The notes under the pieces: generated by a model
Seen by the model: only the letters and a program-made list of their open reading frames with translations
Told to the model about the DNA's origin: nothing
The model's database searches: none
Program-made: the position numbers and the translations under genes
Shown: one piece after another, positions 50,125 through 57,152 of the stretch
Numbering within the stretch: position 1 is the first letter of the stretch
Layout: every line of letters starts with the position of its first letter
Origin: Flavobacterium ammonificans
Lineage (GTDB): Bacteria > Bacteroidota > Bacteroidia > Flavobacteriales > Flavobacteriaceae
Direction of reading: 5' to 3'
DNA length: 64,000 nucleotides
Assembly (NCBI RefSeq): GCF_020886115.1
Contig: NZ_AP025185.1
Span: 2,108,001 to 2,172,000 of the forward strand

Positions 50125-50155
50125 TTGAATTAACCAAATAACCTTTCTATATTTG
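50125..50155 (+). promoter_or_regulatory. trp operon promoter
   Basis: TTG at 50125-50127 and TATATTTG at 50148-50155 with a 20-base spacer. The start of transcription is expected near 50159, 15 bases before the leader peptide ATG. Confidence 0.72.
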
Positions 50156-50173
50156 TAATCGAAGAATATCAAT

Positions 50174-50230
50174 ATGAAAACAATAACAAACAATACTTGG
50201 TGGTGGAATAATTTACGTCAGACGTCGTGA
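50174..50230 (+). CDS. trpL: trp operon leader peptide (18 residues, three consecutive Trp codons)
   Basis: The frame ATG 50174 to TGA 50228-50230 encodes MKTITNNTWWWNNLRQTS, with Trp codons at 50198-50206. Three Trp in 18 residues, directly in front of a terminator hairpin and trpE, is the hallmark of ribosome-mediated attenuation. Stalling at the Trp codons when charged tRNA-Trp is scarce would keep the downstream RNA (50224 onward) free. The peptide itself has no expected function after synthesis. Confidence 0.9.
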   Translation: MKTITNNTWWWNNLRQTS

Positions 50231-50291
50231 ACAGAGCTCCTATAGTATTGCTATAAATATAAAAGGCTTGTCATCACGACAAGCCTTTTTT
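50224..50291 (+). promoter_or_regulatory. trp attenuator: antiterminator and terminator
   Basis: Terminator: stem AAAAGGCTTGTC (50261-50272), loop ATCAC, stem GACAAGCCTTTT (50278-50289) and T run. Competing structure: 50224-50230 (GTCGTGA) pairs with 50274-50280 (TCACGAC), and 50231-50238 (ACAGAGCT, one bulged G) pairs with 50265-50271 (GGCTTGT). This uses up the terminator's 5' arm and loop. A ribosome at the leader stop codon would cover the left strand and allow termination; a ribosome stalled on the Trp codons would leave it free and allow readthrough. Confidence 0.85.
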
Positions 50292-50336
50292 CATATCCTT
50301 AAGCATACTAATTATAACATTATAAAAAAGACCATT

Positions 50337-51737
50337 TTGAAATCTTTTATTTTAAATACAAAATACAAACAAATCCTTGCCGACACCATTACGCCGGTGA
50401 GTGTGTACTTGAAAATACGCGACAAATTCCCGAATAGTTTGCTTTTGGAAAGTAGCGACTACAACGGAAACGACAATAGTTTTTCGTACATCTGTTGCAA
50501 TCCAATTGCAGCTATCAAAATTGAAAATGAAACGATTTCAAAAAATTATCCTGACGGAAGTACTGAAAAAATAGCTATCGATGCTTCAACAGATATTCCT
50601 ACAGTAATCCAAGAATTTTCAGGCCAATTTGAATCAAAGAAAAACGATTTTAAATTCATTAATAATGGCTTATTTGGCTATATCTCTTATGATGCGGTAC
50701 GTTACTTTGAAAAAGTAAACATTGCAAAAAAAGAAAATAGCAATACCATTCCTGATGTGTATTATGCGGTGTACCAAAACATCATTGCGATTAACCATTT
50801 CAAAAATGAAGCGTATATTTTCTGTCATAGTTTGGACGGAAAAAATAATATTGCAGAAATCGAACAATTACTTCAATCTAGAAATATTGCTTCGTATTCT
50901 TTCACCAAATACGGCGAAGGTTTTTCTAATTTAACCGATGAGGAGTTCAAGCATAATGTGGCTTTAGCCAAAAAACATTGTTACCGTGGCGATGTGTTCC
51001 AATTGGTTTTATCCAGACGTTTTACGCAAGGATTCAAAGGCGACGAATTCAATGTATACCGCGCGTTGCGAAGCATCAATCCTTCACCTTACCTCTTCTT
51101 TTTTGATTATGGAGATTTCAAAATATTTGGTTCGTCTCCCGAAGCCCAAATCATCGTGAAAGACCGAAAAGCAGAGATTCATCCTATTGCGGGAACATTC
51201 AAAAGAACAGGTGATGATGAAAAAGATGCTGGTTTAGCCAAACAATTATCAGAAGACAAAAAAGAAAATAGCGAACACGTGATGTTAGTCGATTTGGCTC
51301 GAAATGATTTAAGCCGAAACGGTCACGATGTACAAGTAGAAAAATACCGAGAAGTACAATTCTTTTCGCATGTGATTCATTTAGTTTCCAAAGTTACGGG
51401 GCATTTACATGAGAAAGCTTCGACGATGCAAGTGGTTGTCGATACTTTCCCTGCGGGAACCTTGAGTGGTGCACCAAAACACCGCGCCATGCTATTGATT
51501 GAAGAGTATGAAACAACCAATCGTAACTTTTATGGAGGTGCCATCGGATTTATGGATTTTAAAGGCAATTTCAATCACGCGATTATGATTCGTACTTTCT
51601 TAAGTAAAAACCACCAATTGCATTCTCAAGCAGGAGCAGGAATTGTAGCAAATTCAGATGAAGAAAGCGAAATGCAAGAAGTGTACAACAAATTAAGAGC
51701 CTTAAATACGGCTTTGGATTTGGCAGAAACAATTTAA
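50337..51737 (+). CDS. trpE: anthranilate synthase component I
   Basis: A 466-residue chorismate-utilising enzyme that makes anthranilate with TrpG. The feedback-inhibition segment LLLESSDYNGN is near residue 30. The catalytic region contains GDVFQLVLSRRF, IFGSSPEAQI, HPIAGTFKRTGDDEKDAGLAKQL, SEHVMLVDLARND and PAGTLSGAPKHRAM. The start is the TTG at 50337 (LKSFILNTKYKQ), because upstream codons belong to the terminator and no ATG is available. First gene of the trp operon, controlled by the attenuator. Confidence 0.95.
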   Translation: MKSFILNTKYKQILADTITPVSVYLKIRDKFPNSLLLESSDYNGNDNSFSYICCNPIAAIKIENETISKNYPDGSTEKIAIDASTDIPTVIQEFSGQFESKKNDFKFINNGLFGYISYDAVRYFEKVNIAKKENSNTIPDVYYAVYQNIIAINHFKNEAYIFCHSLDGKNNIAEIEQLLQSRNIASYSFTKYGEGFSNLTDEEFKHNVALAKKHCYRGDVFQLVLSRRFTQGFKGDEFNVYRALRSINPSPYLFFFDYGDFKIFGSSPEAQIIVKDRKAEIHPIAGTFKRTGDDEKDAGLAKQLSEDKKENSEHVMLVDLARNDLSRNGHDVQVEKYREVQFFSHVIHLVSKVTGHLHEKASTMQVVVDTFPAGTLSGAPKHRAMLLIEEYETTNRNFYGGAIGFMDFKGNFNHAIMIRTFLSKNHQLHSQAGAGIVANSDEESEMQEVYNKLRALNTALDLAETI

Positions 51738-51862
51738 GCCCCCTAACCCCCAAAGGGGGAATTTGAAGTAAATTGGAATTAAAAAACAAAAACAAAAAAT
51801 AACGATGAACAATACTAATGCTAATTCTATTCCCACTGTTCCCCCTTCGGGGACTAGGGGGC
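51738..51862. repeat. 24-bp inverted repeat spanning the trpE-trpG junction and the trpG start
   Basis: Left arm 51738-51761 starts directly after the trpE stop; right arm 51839-51862 is its reverse complement at 21 of 24 positions. The core pattern is GCCCCCTA...GGGGGAA. The loop of 77 bases holds the trpG start codon (51805). The right arm lies inside the coding sequence and supplies TrpG residues 12-20. Pairing in RNA would form a long GC-rich stem around the trpG start. Confidence 0.88.
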
Positions 51863-52422
51863 AAATACTAGTCATAGACAATTACGATAGCTTTACGTAC
51901 AATCTAGTCCACTATTTAGAAGATTTAGATTGTGAAGTAACCGTGTACAGAAACGATGAATTTGAGTTGGACGAAATTGCTCATTTTGACAAAATTTTAT
52001 TATCCCCAGGCCCAGGAATTCCAGATGAAGCGGGATTATTGAAACAAGTCATTCAGCAGTACGGACCTACCAAAAGTATTTTTGGCGTATGCCTAGGACA
52101 ACAAGCCATTGGCGAAGTGTATGGCGGAACGCTTTCGAATTTGGACAAAGTGTATCATGGTGTAGCAACCAAGGTTACTAAATCAGTCAATGACGAAATC
52201 CTTTTTGAAGGATTGGAGAACGAATTTGAAGTGGGACGTTACCATTCTTGGGTGGTAGACGCTAATTTACCAGATTGTTTGGAAGCGACTTCTTTTGACG
52301 AAAACGGACAACTAATGTCGCTACGACACAAGACTTACGATGTTAGAGGAGTTCAATTCCACCCAGAAAGTGTATTAACACCAAACGGAAAAAAAATGTT
52401 AGAAAATTGGGTAAAAAGTTAA
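51805..52422 (+). CDS. trpG: anthranilate synthase component II (glutamine amidotransferase)
   Basis: A 205-residue class I glutamine amidotransferase that supplies ammonia to TrpE. The nucleophile is in FGVCLGQQAIGE, and GVQFHPES carries the catalytic His. The usual protein begins at ILVIDNYDSFTYN; here 19 extra residues (MNNTNANSIPTVPPSGTRG) precede it, encoded largely by the right arm of the inverted repeat. No other start codon of common type is available before the core, so the extension is probably real. Confidence 0.93.
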   Translation: MNNTNANSIPTVPPSGTRGQILVIDNYDSFTYNLVHYLEDLDCEVTVYRNDEFELDEIAHFDKILLSPGPGIPDEAGLLKQVIQQYGPTKSIFGVCLGQQAIGEVYGGTLSNLDKVYHGVATKVTKSVNDEILFEGLENEFEVGRYHSWVVDANLPDCLEATSFDENGQLMSLRHKTYDVRGVQFHPESVLTPNGKKMLENWVKS

Positions 52423-52528
52423 GTTAGATTGTTAGATAATTTAGATGGTTAGATGATTGGATCTTCCAATTTTTATAGAAATTATTCAAATAGTACCCAT
52501 GTGAAAATTGGGATTAAATAAAACAAAA

Positions 52529-52562
52529 ATCTTTGCGACTTAGTGCCTGAGCGGCAAAAAAA
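52529..52562 (+). repeat. dispersed CTTTGCG...GGCAAA element upstream of trpD
   Basis: The string ATCTTTGCGACTTAGTGCC continues to GCGGCAAAAAA and stops just before the trpD ATG. It aligns without gaps with the elements upstream of trpC and trpF. The rest of the 146-base trpG-trpD spacer holds degenerate TTAGAT repeats (52423-52475) and nothing else recognised. Confidence 0.7.
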
Positions 52563-52568
52563 ATAAAA

Positions 52569-53561
52569 ATGAAAAACATACTCAACAGATTAATCAATCA
52601 CGAAATGCTCTCAAAAGAAGAAGCTAAAAACGTTTTGGTCAAAATATCCAATGGGGAATACAATACAAGCCAAATAGCTTCTTTCTTAACGGTCTACATG
52701 ATGCGTAGCATCAGTATCGAAGAATTAGCGGGTTTTCGTGAAGCCTTATTGGATTTGTGTATTCGTGTCGATTTATCAGGCTACAACACCATTGATTTGT
52801 GCGGAACGGGTGGCGATGGAAAAGATACCTTTAACATTTCGACCTTGGCTTCTTTTGTAGCTGCAGGAGCGGGAATCAAAGTAGCTAAACACGGAAATTA
52901 TGGTGTTTCGTCGATTTCGGGATCGAGTAATGTGATGGAAAAAATGGGAATCAAATTCAGTAATGAAGCTGGTTTCTTGGAAAAATGTATGGAAAAAGCA
53001 GGCATCTGTATTTTACACGCACCACTTTTCCACCCTGCTATGAAAAATGTGGGACCTATTCGAAAAGAGTTGGGTGTAAAAACCTTTTTCAATATGTTGG
53101 GACCTATGGTAAATCCAGCTTTTCCTCAGAATCAATTGGTGGGAGTTTTCAATTTGGAATTGGCTCGAATGTATGCCTATTTGTACCAAAACACCGATAG
53201 AAATTTTACGATTTTACATTCCTTGGACGGTTATGATGAAGTTTCCTTAACCTGTCCGACCAAATGTATTACAAACACAAAAGAACTGATGCTGAATCCA
53301 GACGATTTTGGCGTTCGTCTTTTGTCACAAACCGAAATTGAAGGCGGTAAAACTATTGAAGAATCAGCCCAATTATTTACCGATATCATTTCAGGAAAAG
53401 GAACTGAAGCCCAAAATAATGTGGTCTGCGCCAATGCTGCAATGGCGATTGAAACGGTAACACAATGCAGTCCGTTAGAAGGATTTGAATTAGCTAAAGA
53501 GAGTTTGTTCTCAGGAAAAGGATTGCAAGCCTTACAAACGTTACAAGAATTAAGTAAATAG
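52569..53561 (+). CDS. trpD: anthranilate phosphoribosyltransferase
   Basis: A 330-residue enzyme joining anthranilate and phosphoribosyl diphosphate. The loop CGTGGDGKDTFNIST and KHGNYGVSSISGSSNV bind the diphosphate, and the anthranilate pocket segment HPAMKNVGPIRKELGVKT is intact. The length is normal. Third gene of the operon. Confidence 0.96.
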   Translation: MKNILNRLINHEMLSKEEAKNVLVKISNGEYNTSQIASFLTVYMMRSISIEELAGFREALLDLCIRVDLSGYNTIDLCGTGGDGKDTFNISTLASFVAAGAGIKVAKHGNYGVSSISGSSNVMEKMGIKFSNEAGFLEKCMEKAGICILHAPLFHPAMKNVGPIRKELGVKTFFNMLGPMVNPAFPQNQLVGVFNLELARMYAYLYQNTDRNFTILHSLDGYDEVSLTCPTKCITNTKELMLNPDDFGVRLLSQTEIEGGKTIEESAQLFTDIISGKGTEAQNNVVCANAAMAIETVTQCSPLEGFELAKESLFSGKGLQALQTLQELSK

Positions 53562-53670
53562 AAATACGAATTACACGAATTACACGAATTGCTCGAATTG
53601 CTCGAATTAGCACAAATGAATTAAATATCAATTTTTAACCTTTGCGCATTAGCGCCTTAGCGGCAAAAAA
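53562..53670 (+). repeat. trpD-trpC spacer made of two repeat types
   Basis: 53565-53615 is a tandem array of ACGAATT-type units (spacing about 9-10 bases, drifting to GCTCGAATT). 53639-53670 is a copy of the CCTTTGCG...TTAGCGGCAAAAAA element, which runs straight into the trpC ATG at 53671. The whole spacer is repeat-derived. Confidence 0.75.
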
Positions 53671-54450
53671 ATGAACATATTAGATAAAATAATACTAGAC
53701 AAACGAAGAGAAGTAGTTCTTAAAAAATCGATTATTCCGGTTTCACAATTGGAGGCATCGGTGTTTTTTGAAAGACAAACCATTTCGTTAAGCCATAATT
53801 TACGCAACAGTAGTTCAGGAATTATTGCCGAACACAAACGTCGTTCGCCTTCAAAATCCGAAATCAATTACGGTTTTACCGTTGAAGAAGTAGTCAAAGG
53901 CTATGAAACAGCGGGCGCTTGTGGTATTTCGGTTTTAACGGATGGAAAATATTTTGGTGGTTCTTTAGACGATTTGTTATTGGCAAGAGCCACGGTCAAT
54001 ATTCCGCTATTGCGAAAAGAATTCATTGTGGACGAATACCAAATCTTGGAAGCCAAAGCCCACGGTGCCGATTTAATTCTGCTAATCGCTGCGGTTTTGA
54101 GCCGAGAGGAAATCAAAAGTTTATCCGAGTTCGCACATGGTTTAGGATTGGAAGTCCTTTTGGAAGTCCACAATCAAGAAGAATTAGAAAAATCAATAAT
54201 GCCAAGTTTGGATATGATTGGAGTCAATAACCGAAATTTAAAATCTTTTGAAGTGAGTTTGGATTTCAGTAAAGAATTGGCTGACCAAATTCCGAACGAA
54301 TTTGTAAAAGTATCCGAAAGTGGTATTTCGTCTATCGAAGCAATAAATGAATTAAAACCATTTGGTTACCAAGGATTTTTAATTGGTGAAAACTTCATGA
54401 AAACGGATAATGCTGGTCAAGCGGCAAAAGAATTTATAGCGCAATTGTAA
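53671..54450 (+). CDS. trpC: indole-3-glycerol-phosphate synthase
   Basis: A 259-residue TIM-barrel enzyme closing the indole ring. AEHKRRSPSKSEI holds the catalytic Lys, RKEFIVDEYQILEAKAHGAD holds the second Lys and Glu region, and GVNNRNLKSFEV and VSESGISS form the phosphate-binding end. Normal length, not fused to TrpF. Confidence 0.96.
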   Translation: MNILDKIILDKRREVVLKKSIIPVSQLEASVFFERQTISLSHNLRNSSSGIIAEHKRRSPSKSEINYGFTVEEVVKGYETAGACGISVLTDGKYFGGSLDDLLLARATVNIPLLRKEFIVDEYQILEAKAHGADLILLIAAVLSREEIKSLSEFAHGLGLEVLLEVHNQEELEKSIMPSLDMIGVNNRNLKSFEVSLDFSKELADQIPNEFVKVSESGISSIEAINELKPFGYQGFLIGENFMKTDNAGQAAKEFIAQL

Positions 54451-54567
54451 CGACACGAATTACACGAATTATCACGAATTGGAAAAAGTTAAACACAGAT
54501 TAAAGAGTTTACACAGTATAAAAAACCTTTGATTCTTAGTGTCTTTGTGGCAAATAAAAACAAAAAT
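54451..54567 (+). repeat. trpC-trpF spacer with ACGAATT array and CTTTG...GGCAAA element
   Basis: 54452-54480 holds CACGAATTACACGAATTATC-type repeats; 54494-54516 holds CACAGATTAAAGAG and TTTACACAG; 54526-54560 is a third copy of the CCTTTG...TTAGTGTCTTTGTGGCAAA element. No gene. Confidence 0.7.
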
Positions 54568-55191
54568 ATGAAACTCAAAATCTGCGGCATGAAATACCCC
54601 GACAATATTCTAGAAGTAGGATCGCTCCTACCCGATTATATGGGCTTTATATTCTGGGAAAAGTCGGCACGCTATTTTGATGGAGTACTTCCAAATTTAC
54701 CGCAAAACATCAAAAAAACAGGAGTTTTTGTCAATGCCAGTCAAGAAGATATTGTGTCAAAACTAAGCCAATACGATTTGCAAGCGGTTCAATTGCATGG
54801 ACATGAGTCGGTGGCATTTTGCCAAGAGTTAAAAAATACATTGGCGAAAAGCATTGAAATCATCAAAGTATTTTCAGTGGATTCATTTTTTGATTTTGAC
54901 GAGTTGAAACCTTTTGAAACAGTTTGTGATTATTTCCTTTTTGATACCAAAGGAAAATTACCTGGAGGCAACGGAACGACTTTCGATTGGAAAGTGCTAG
55001 AAAAATATCCATCGCAAAAACCCTTCTTTTTGAGTGGCGGCATTGGACTAGACGAAATTGATTTGGTCAACGAAATAGTAAAAACTGACTTACCTATTTA
55101 CGCCATTGATGTAAATAGTAAATTTGAAATTGAACCCGGATTAAAAAACAAAGAAGAATTGCATCGTTTTAAACAAAAAATAAACTTTTAA
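54568..55191 (+). CDS. trpF: phosphoribosylanthranilate isomerase
   Basis: A 207-residue TIM barrel. MKLKICGMK opens with the catalytic Cys, GVFVNAS and AVQLHGHES line the barrel, FDTKGKLPGGNGTTFDW binds the substrate, and FFLSGGIG and AIDVNSKFEIEPGLK complete the phosphate site. I chose ATG 54568 because the upstream in-frame start (54529) adds 13 residues before the conserved KICGMK. Confidence 0.94.
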   Translation: MKLKICGMKYPDNILEVGSLLPDYMGFIFWEKSARYFDGVLPNLPQNIKKTGVFVNASQEDIVSKLSQYDLQAVQLHGHESVAFCQELKNTLAKSIEIIKVFSVDSFFDFDELKPFETVCDYFLFDTKGKLPGGNGTTFDWKVLEKYPSQKPFFLSGGIGLDEIDLVNEIVKTDLPIYAIDVNSKFEIEPGLKNKEELHRFKQKINF

Positions 55192-55203
55192 AAAAGTACA
55201 ATC

Positions 55204-56385
55204 ATGAGTTACAACGTCAACGAAAAAGGCTATTACGGAGAATTTGGTGGGGCTTACATTCCAGAAATGTTATATCCCAATGTAGAAGAATTGCGCCAAA
55301 ACTATTTAAAAATAACAGCCGAACCTGAGTTTCAAGCTGAGTTTGACGATTTATTGAAAGAATATGTAGGTCGCCCTACTCCGCTTTATTTTGCATCACG
55401 ATTGTCTGAAAAATACAATACTAAAGTTTATCTTAAAAGAGAAGATTTGTGCCATACAGGAGCACACAAAGTAAACAACACAATTGGTCAAATTTTATTA
55501 GCCAAACGTTTGGGTAAAAAGCGAATCATTGCCGAAACAGGCGCAGGTCAACACGGTGTAGCTACGGCAACCGTTTGTGCCTTGATGGGCTTGGAATGTA
55601 TTGTGTACATGGGCGAAATTGACATCAAGCGTCAAGCACCTAATGTAGCACGTATGAAAATGTTAGGCGCAGAAGTACGACCGGCCATGTCGGGATCTCG
55701 TACCTTAAAAGACGCAACAAACGAAGCGATTCGTGATTGGATTAACAATCCGGTGGATACCTATTACATCATTGGTTCTGTGGTGGGACCTCATCCTTAT
55801 CCTGATATGGTGGCGCGTTTCCAATCGGTGATTTCGAAAGAAATTAAAAGCCAATTATTGGAAAAAGAAGGCAAAGAAAATCCTGATTACGTAATTGCCT
55901 GTGTAGGCGGTGGAAGTAATGCTGCAGGAGCGTATTATCACTTTTTGGATGAAAAAGAAGTAAACATTATTGCTGTGGAAGCTGCTGGTTTAGGAGTGCA
56001 TTCAGGTGAAAGTGCTGCTACCTCAGCTTTAGGAAAAGTGGGTGTTATTCACGGAAGTAAAACTTTATTGATGCAAACCCCCGACGGACAAATTACCGAA
56101 CCCTACTCTATTTCAGCAGGATTGGATTACCCAGGTGTAGGACCCATGCACGCAAATTTATATGCTACAGGTAGAGCGCAATTTATCTCCATAACTGATG
56201 AGCAAGCGATGGATTGGGGATTACAACTATCCAAATTAGAAGGTATAATTCCGGCAATTGAAACCGCTCATGCCTTTGCGGTTTTGGACGAAATGAAATT
56301 CAAACCGACTGATATAGTTGTGATTAATCTTTCGGGACGTGGCGACAAAGATTTGAATACTTATATTGATTATTTTAAATTATAG
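55204..56385 (+). CDS. trpB: tryptophan synthase beta subunit
   Basis: A 393-residue PLP enzyme. The Schiff-base Lys is in [22 protein letters not shown] follows, the phosphate loop is GGGSNAAG, and the C-terminal NLSGRGDKD is the family end. It joins indole to serine. Starts 12 bases after trpF. Confidence 0.97.
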
Positions 56386-56387
56386 CA

Positions 56388-57152
56388 ATGAACAGAATCA
56401 ATCAAAAATTACAAGAAACAAAAAAAATATTATCTATCTATTTTTCAGCGGGATACCCAAGCCTGAATGATACGGTGCAAATTATACAAGATTTAGAAAA
56501 AAGTGGAGTCGATATGATCGAAATTGGTCTGCCATTTAGCGATCCTTTGGCTGATGGCCCTACCATTCAGGCGAGTTCTACTCAAGCCTTACATAACGGA
56601 ATGACAACCCAAGTTTTGTTTGACCAATTGAAAGACATTCGTAAAACAGTTTCAATTCCGTTAGTAATTATGGGGTATTTCAACCCAATGTTGCAATATG
56701 GAATAGAAGATTTCTGTAAAAAATGTGCTGAAATTGGTATTGACGGATTGATCATTCCGGATTTACCCGTAGATGTCTATGCAGACGAATACAAAGCTAC
56801 TTTCGAAAAATACGGACTTATCAATGTGTTTTTAATTACACCGCAAACATCTGACGAACGAATCCGTTTTATTGATAGCGTGTCTGACGGATTTATCTAT
56901 ATGGTGAGTTCAGCCAGCGTGACGGGTTCGCAATCGGGTTTTGGAAGTACACAAGAAGACTATTTCAAACGTATTGCCGACATGAATTTGAAAAACCCAC
57001 AAATCATTGGTTTTGGAATCAATAATGCCGAAACATTCAACCAAGCGACTCAATTTGCCAAAGGCGCCATCATTGGAAGTGCTTTTATTACGCATTTAAC
57101 CGAAAATGGCACTGGAAAAATCGAGGAGTTTGTGAAAGGGATAAGAGAATAG
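56388..57152 (+). CDS. trpA: tryptophan synthase alpha subunit
   Basis: A 254-residue TIM barrel releasing indole from indole-3-glycerol phosphate. IEIGLPFSDPLADGPTIQ holds the catalytic Glu and Asp, and YMVSSASVTGSQSGF and GFGINNAETFNQ bind the phosphate. Starts 2 bases after the trpB stop, so the two are translationally coupled. Last gene of the trp operon. Confidence 0.96.
   Translation: MNRINQKLQETKKILSIYFSAGYPSLNDTVQIIQDLEKSGVDMIEIGLPFSDPLADGPTIQASSTQALHNGMTTQVLFDQLKDIRKTVSIPLVIMGYFNPMLQYGIEDFCKKCAEIGIDGLIIPDLPVDVYADEYKATFEKYGLINVFLITPQTSDERIRFIDSVSDGFIYMVSSASVTGSQSGFGSTQEDYFKRIADMNLKNPQIIGFGINNAETFNQATQFAKGAIIGSAFITHLTENGTGKIEEFVKGIRE

Follow-up and report, generated by a model that had tools for sequence, protein, structure and literature searches.

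The element upstream of the tryptophan (trp) operon of Flavobacterium ammonificans is very probably a ribosome-mediated transcription attenuator of the Bacteroid-trp family (Rfam RF01692), and the scaffold of this family is likely a codon-programmable attenuator that has been re-addressed by evolution. In the Myroides/Avrilella branch of the genus sampled and a few related MAGs, lysine codons (typically KKGKK) are found 18 nt before the same core, directly upstream of a lysine-type aspartokinase gene (with lysA next where read), and lysC is probably attenuated there via tRNA-Lys. Judged from its sequence, the trp element appears to be a catalogued kind of switch for Bacteroidota and not a new one; the lysine-coded attenuator of lysC is the novel part and the result worth following.

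The window (the whole stretch of DNA analysed, 64 kb in length) contains the trp operon in the order trpE, trpG, trpD, trpC, trpF, trpB, and trpA according to the ORF listing. The features of the leader and the operon are as follows.

50125–50155, + strand: putative Bacteroidota-type promoter read from the sequence (TTG at 50125–50127, 20-nt spacer, TATATTTG at 50148–50155)
50154–50272, + strand: match to Rfam RF01692 Bacteroid-trp (71.5 bits; gathering score, 49), with the modelled hairpin at about 50189–50252
50174–50230, + strand: leader peptide MKTITNNTWWWNNLRQTS and its stop codon (ATG at 50174, 18 codons, TGA at 50228–50230)
50213–50218 (about), + strand: strand 1, UUUACG, predicted in MFE structures to pair with the antiterminator left strand when no ribosome covers it
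50224–50238, + strand: strand 2, antiterminator left strand from folding and alignment, with the core GUCGUGA at 50224–50230
50261–50291, + strand: intrinsic terminator (arms 50261–50272 and 50278–50289; T run 50286–50291)
50265–50280, + strand: strand 3, antiterminator right strand from folding and alignment, with the core UCACGAC at 50274–50280
50337–51737, + strand: trpE, an ORF with a probable TTG start at 50337, inferred from the start of its relatives
51805–57152, + strand: the rest of the operon (trpG, trpD, trpC, trpF, trpB, and trpA), ORFs

Family scans covered trpE and trpG only: the trpE frame had trpE_most as its top NCBIfam match, below the cut-off (440.2 versus 517.7 bits), and the first ORF after it exceeded the trpG_papA cut-off. 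The following frames are those that we take, from their sequences, to be trpD, trpC, trpF, trpB, and trpA. At the apparent TTG start of trpE (50337), no ATG was seen that matches the start position of the relatives. The TTG at −33 with its spacing is presumably a promoter element upstream of the trp leader. The motif TAnnTTTG, given as the flavobacterial promoter motif (−7) in the available text of PMC6414381 and PMC9723704, lies close to the start of the RF01692 match in 162 of 197 homologous loci.

As is characteristic of attenuators, the leader frame is short and rich in Trp codons, with TGG TGG TGG (Trp-Trp-Trp) in frame at 50198–50206. An earlier reading made from the sequence alone (the sequence-only reading) had described an 18-codon leader with three adjacent Trp codons, a perfect 12-bp terminator, and an antiterminator left strand that begins 17 nt past the last Trp codon and covers the leader stop codon; all of these were borne out. 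The terminator, recognized by sequence and pairing, stands before the first gene and consists of AAAAGGCTTGTC (50261–50272), the loop ATCAC (50273–50277), and the perfect complement (50278–50289), forming 12 bp with −16.5 kcal/mol. Its T run is separated by 45 nt from the trpE start, if this is at 50337. Folding of 50224–50238 with 50265–50280 confirmed the existence of the competing structure with 12 pairs (7 + 5; −14.9 kcal/mol) instead of the 14 previously claimed. This antiterminator had also been said to consume the terminator 5′ arm and loop; it takes 50265–50269 of the arm and most of the loop, together with the first 3 nt of the 3′ arm. The segment 50159–50300, whose folding had been proposed as a check, gave z = −4.37 and was more stable than all 200 shuffles. 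The sequence TGGTGGTGG by itself is not rare, with two sites on the + strand and one on the − strand of the window. By computation, the antiterminator excludes the terminator and separates a stalled from a finished ribosome, although the locus alone does no better than shuffles (12.96 expected pairs; the 10 shuffles average 7.28 and reach up to 13.05). What lends weight to the antiterminator is its recurrence in relatives.

The locus scores above the RF01692 gathering threshold (71.5 versus 49 bits), lies upstream of trp biosynthesis genes, and comes from a genome of the phylum Bacteroidota; it thus shares with the family the pathway, the Trp-codon leader, and the phylum, and no difference was found at the locus. 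The sequence-only reading had left it open whether this form was described for Bacteroidota. It was: the family was published in 2010 (PMC2864571), the element was noted ahead of the Flavobacterium psychrophilum trp operon and likened to the E. coli Trp leader in 2019 (PMC6414381), and strong indications of attenuation by leader peptides preceding amino-acid operons of the same species were reported in 2021 (PMC9723704), all according to the portions of these papers available to us. The last of these agrees with the present case in genus and mechanism, which was proposed there from structured 5′ transcripts, and it also describes the expression of five Rfam-predicted cis-regulatory RNAs. It differs in that, within its accessible text, the new 5′ elements are named at pheA and hisG, and the words "trp" and "lysine" are absent from the main text as available. 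Upstream of hisG, for which PMC9723704 thus reports a new 5′ element in the part seen, the source genome (at about 1945.9 kb of G000:C1) encodes the leader MLLIQLHHHHSQNCSQAMC, which contains four His codons and lies upstream of a 14-bp terminator; judged by eye, a segment downstream of these codons, CUCAAGCG, could base-pair with the terminator segment CGUUUGAG. As for RF01692 itself, the model marks only the leader hairpin and ends at the terminator 5′ arm, so that the antiterminator falls outside it; the antiterminator and the full terminator were added by the present analysis, which supplies the half of the mechanism left out of the Rfam model.

The flavobacterial leader resembles the Escherichia coli trpL attenuator in its Trp-rich leader peptide, its terminator, and its mutually exclusive antiterminator, and it has a candidate for the sequestering hairpin, a likeness that does not imply homology. 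Two differences are that the right strand of the flavobacterial antiterminator is made of the terminator loop and parts of both arms, and that the stop codon usually lies inside the antiterminator left strand. The earlier description as more compact than the enterobacterial four-segment attenuator does not clearly hold, since UUUACG (about 50213–50218) is able to pair with the antiterminator left strand and four strands are possible.

The attenuator reading is supported by the relatives, which retain the Trp codons and the paired segments in a comparison that the sequence-only reading had set as a possible refutation. At least two adjacent TGG codons are present in 197/197 homologous loci, a partly circular count, since these codons are part of the Rfam model used to find the loci, and an ATG-started leader with at least two Trp is present in 194. 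TCG[TC][GA]A occurs within 45 nt of the Trp codons in 190 of the 197 loci, starting 17–22 nt after the last Trp codon in 189 of these 190 leaders (121 at exactly 18 and 42 at 21); the remaining spacing of 3, at L193, looks like a search mis-hit. The stop codon is less fixed in place, and its distance downstream of the last Trp codon ranges from 6 to 57 nt. A chance Trp triplet was considered and rejected, because the combination of elements is conserved.

Pairing was evaluated in an alignment of 99 non-redundant sequences (90 Trp and 9 Lys; L124 was left out of 100 because its terminator was mis-called), in which both the antiterminator and the terminator pair. The antiterminator core is 94.5% paired, and none of 500 shuffles reaches the observed pairing or covariation score (0 to 8 of 500 for the five observed measures), kinship among the aligned sequences inflating all such shuffle comparisons. 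Four of the seven core pairs are changed on both sides, three of them in a single sequence only and one in 32 sequences, so that most of the covariation comes from one pair. The first core pair is broken in 22/99 sequences, and an additional outer pair (the eighth) is 60.2% paired, both of its sides being changed in 14 sequences. In all, 49 cells of the core are changed on both sides versus 18.3 in shuffles. The terminator is paired in 100% of cells with 8/10 pairs changed on both sides, in sequences that were picked for having the hairpin. The sequestering hairpin between strands 1 and 2 is paired in 75.5% of cells with weak covariation, its doubly changed count being matched by 143/500 shuffles. 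In one distant relative (L196, genome G426), the antiterminator strand seems by eye to be shifted onto the terminator 5′ arm (TCAAAGTCTT versus AAGACTTTGA), in a different register.

These data bear on two alternatives. The leader might work mainly on translation or Rho, in that the position of the ribosome would govern the access of Rho or the initiation of trpE, with the hairpin doing no more than stabilizing the RNA; leaders could conceivably be controlled at translation in a phylum lacking Shine-Dalgarno sequences (as stated in the accessible part of PMC9723704), and the hairpin always forms at equilibrium. We consider this explanation quite unlikely, because it needs neither a covarying, U-tracted, perfect hairpin ahead of trpE in 99 sequences nor a conserved competing pairing. 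Under the second alternative, which is very unlikely, only the leader and terminator would be genuine, and selection acting on the terminator and on the peptide end would have left the antiterminator as a by-product. The concentration of core covariation in one pair and the behavior of shuffled segments described below speak for such a by-product, whereas the distance of TCGTGA from the Trp codons is fixed while the stop codon shifts, and both the excess of doubly changed cells and the native pairing medians speak against it.

The attenuator reading was further examined by folding 200 leaders (190 Trp and 10 Lys) with the RNA cut 4 nt into the terminator 3′ arm and the ribosome-covered bases declared unpaired. 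Seven of the 197 Trp loci (L057, L094, L128, L129, L132, L180, and L184) are outside this set because the script found no terminator, although one is visible by eye in at least L057, L128, L180, and L184. With a ribosome on the last regulatory codon, at least 5 antiterminator pairs are expected in 199/200 leaders, the one failure being L124, which was kept here with its mis-called terminator. With the ribosome on the stop codon, this number falls to 3/200, a result partly built in because the covered bases are declared unpaired, and with the ribosome absent it is 68/200. The native median is about 13 pairs versus about 4 for shuffled leader segments, whose mean reaches 5 pairs in 50/200 cases. 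The native segment exceeds the best of 10 shuffles in 168/200 leaders; some shuffle equals it in the other 32, among them the leader of the locus itself.

At the locus, stalling of the ribosome at Trp 2 or 3 makes the antiterminator dominant in transcripts ending at 50280–50284; with the ribosome at the stop codon, the antiterminator is absent. From end 50288 onward, full-length RNA included, the terminator wins in every ribosome state tried. A purely equilibrium switch was rejected on this basis; the switch would have to be kinetic, with the choice made while the polymerase hides the last bases. The antiterminator also forms briefly without a ribosome at ends 50280–50282, and an untranslated leader is thus not predicted to be firmly off.

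In the mechanism that we propose, RNA polymerase would start just upstream of the leader, followed by a ribosome translating the 18-codon peptide. When charged tRNA-Trp is scarce, the ribosome would stall on the Trp codons and leave the strand GUCGUGA... (from 50224) free to pair with the emerging terminator loop and arms; the terminator would then form too late, and the trp genes would be transcribed. When Trp is ample, the ribosome would reach the stop codon inside strand 2 and cover this strand, and the 12-bp terminator would be expected to end transcription near 50290.

RF01692 was found in 97/150 genomes of the genus, 208/299 of the family, and 42/395 of the phylum, as well as in 29/101 and 26/40 genomes of two other families of the class; these tallies are lower bounds, as up to 8 to 63 first-look candidates were scored per genome, and the samples overlap. 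In the genus set of 150, the leader accompanies TrpE in all 93 genomes with a TrpE at least 65% identical over the match. Divergent TrpE is present with the leader in 2 genomes and without it in 9; the leader occurs without a TrpE match in 2 genomes, and neither is found in 44. A TrpE-like frame lies downstream on the same strand in 186/197 loci, within 600 nt of the match start in 142 and at 1.3–1.6 kb in 44. By eye, the leader precedes a trpB-like frame in four genomes (G020, G058, G072, and G123), and five Trp leaders with the shared core (L269, L279, L286, L292, and L304) have as the first downstream frame a trpD- or trpB-like one, not trpE.

The lysine-coded form appears at a weak RF01692 match (L200; 46.2 bits, below 49) that encodes MNTWIIKKGKKQYLRRTS and precedes an aspartokinase. 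The bare core GTCGTGA...GGCYTGTC...ACGACA matched in 87/150 genus genomes, and a reversed control pattern gave no match in the same 150. Beyond the Trp leaders (overlap judged by eye), these matches comprise five lysine leaders (G018, G020, G072, G084, and G123), all preceding an aspartokinase and then a lysA-like frame. The four aspartokinases scanned are nearest to the lysine-sensitive type, below its cut-off and above that of the general family; one of the two lysA frames scanned passes its cut-off, and the other is truncated. The lysC of these loci is present in 10/150 genus genomes (E ≤ 1e-80), and a lysine leader precedes it in 10/10, five by pattern and five by direct reading. In the wider family, more distant lysC genes occur in 93/259 genomes, and reading 30 of these loci revealed 3 lysine leaders, one recognized by eye. 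The source genome has no match to the lysC of the lysine-leader loci, and its single core is that of the Trp leader. The following loci carry the lysine-coded attenuator before lysC, some of the labels denoting one and the same place.

L200, L237–L240, L257, L264, L266, L275, L278, L285, L298, L301, L306, L322–L326: loci with a lysine-coded attenuator before lysC

Among 15 lysine leaders examined, the distance from the final two lysine codons to TCGTGA is always exactly 18 nt, partly owing to the search pattern, and TAnnTTTG is present upstream in 15/15. For a stalled ribosome, 4.5 to 14.6 antiterminator pairs are expected, and for a ribosome at the stop codon at most 2.1. An in-frame ATG was not found in L264 and L278, where TTG, GTG, or ATT would have to serve. 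A lysine-rich frame LSFKKGKKQHIP before lysC in L331 (G776), without ATG and with a changed antiterminator strand, may represent a form that has diverged or decayed. The RNA core and the peptide end (often LR.TS before the stop) are common to the Trp and Lys leaders, which favors an origin by copying and codon exchange over convergence.

A core search gave at least about 151 matches, and the 18 loci read among the matches listed are 2 Lys and 16 Trp leaders. A search of genome_contigs for other amino acids on the same core gave 65 matches: 9 Lys (six Myroides, Avrilella dinanensis, and two MAGs), 54 Trp by reading, three of which (L302, L309, and L315) have a single Trp codon, and 2 apparent chance matches (Achromobacter and Amorphus). 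No regulatory codons other than Trp and Lys were found among these 65 matches, with a pattern that required GGCTTGTC and no G at the second codon place and therefore misses GGCC terminators, Arg, Gly, Cys, and some Ser codons.

The exchange of codons also weighs against a leader that binds a ligand or tRNA (as a riboswitch or T-box would) and whose peptide is incidental, a reading for which the strong conservation of GGCTTGTC would speak. This conservation is explicable by the pairing of the segment with two partners, and in the relatives the codons become Lys along with the downstream pathway, which is unexpected for a Trp-binding RNA. In the 64-kb window, gathering scores are reached only by RF01692 and one tRNA, that is, by no T-box or riboswitch family, and in 14 lysine-leader lysC loci by no Rfam family, RF00168 included. 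We therefore regard such a binding leader as exceedingly improbable. Control of lysC by the lysine riboswitch is known, for example, from Shewanella (PMC2659441, in the part available); the lysine leaders share with RF00168 the target lysC and differ in that RF00168 stays below its gathering score in those 14 loci.

For the attenuators of this family, the lysine-coded relatives matter more than the trp locus itself. Lysine leader-peptide attenuation of lysC was not found in the literature searched, with subscription papers and supplements outside its scope; if true, the lysine-coded leader gives lysC a kind of control that this literature does not contain. An exchange in nature that alters which amino acid is sensed and leaves the remaining switch intact would make it possible to test how attenuators acquire new specificity.
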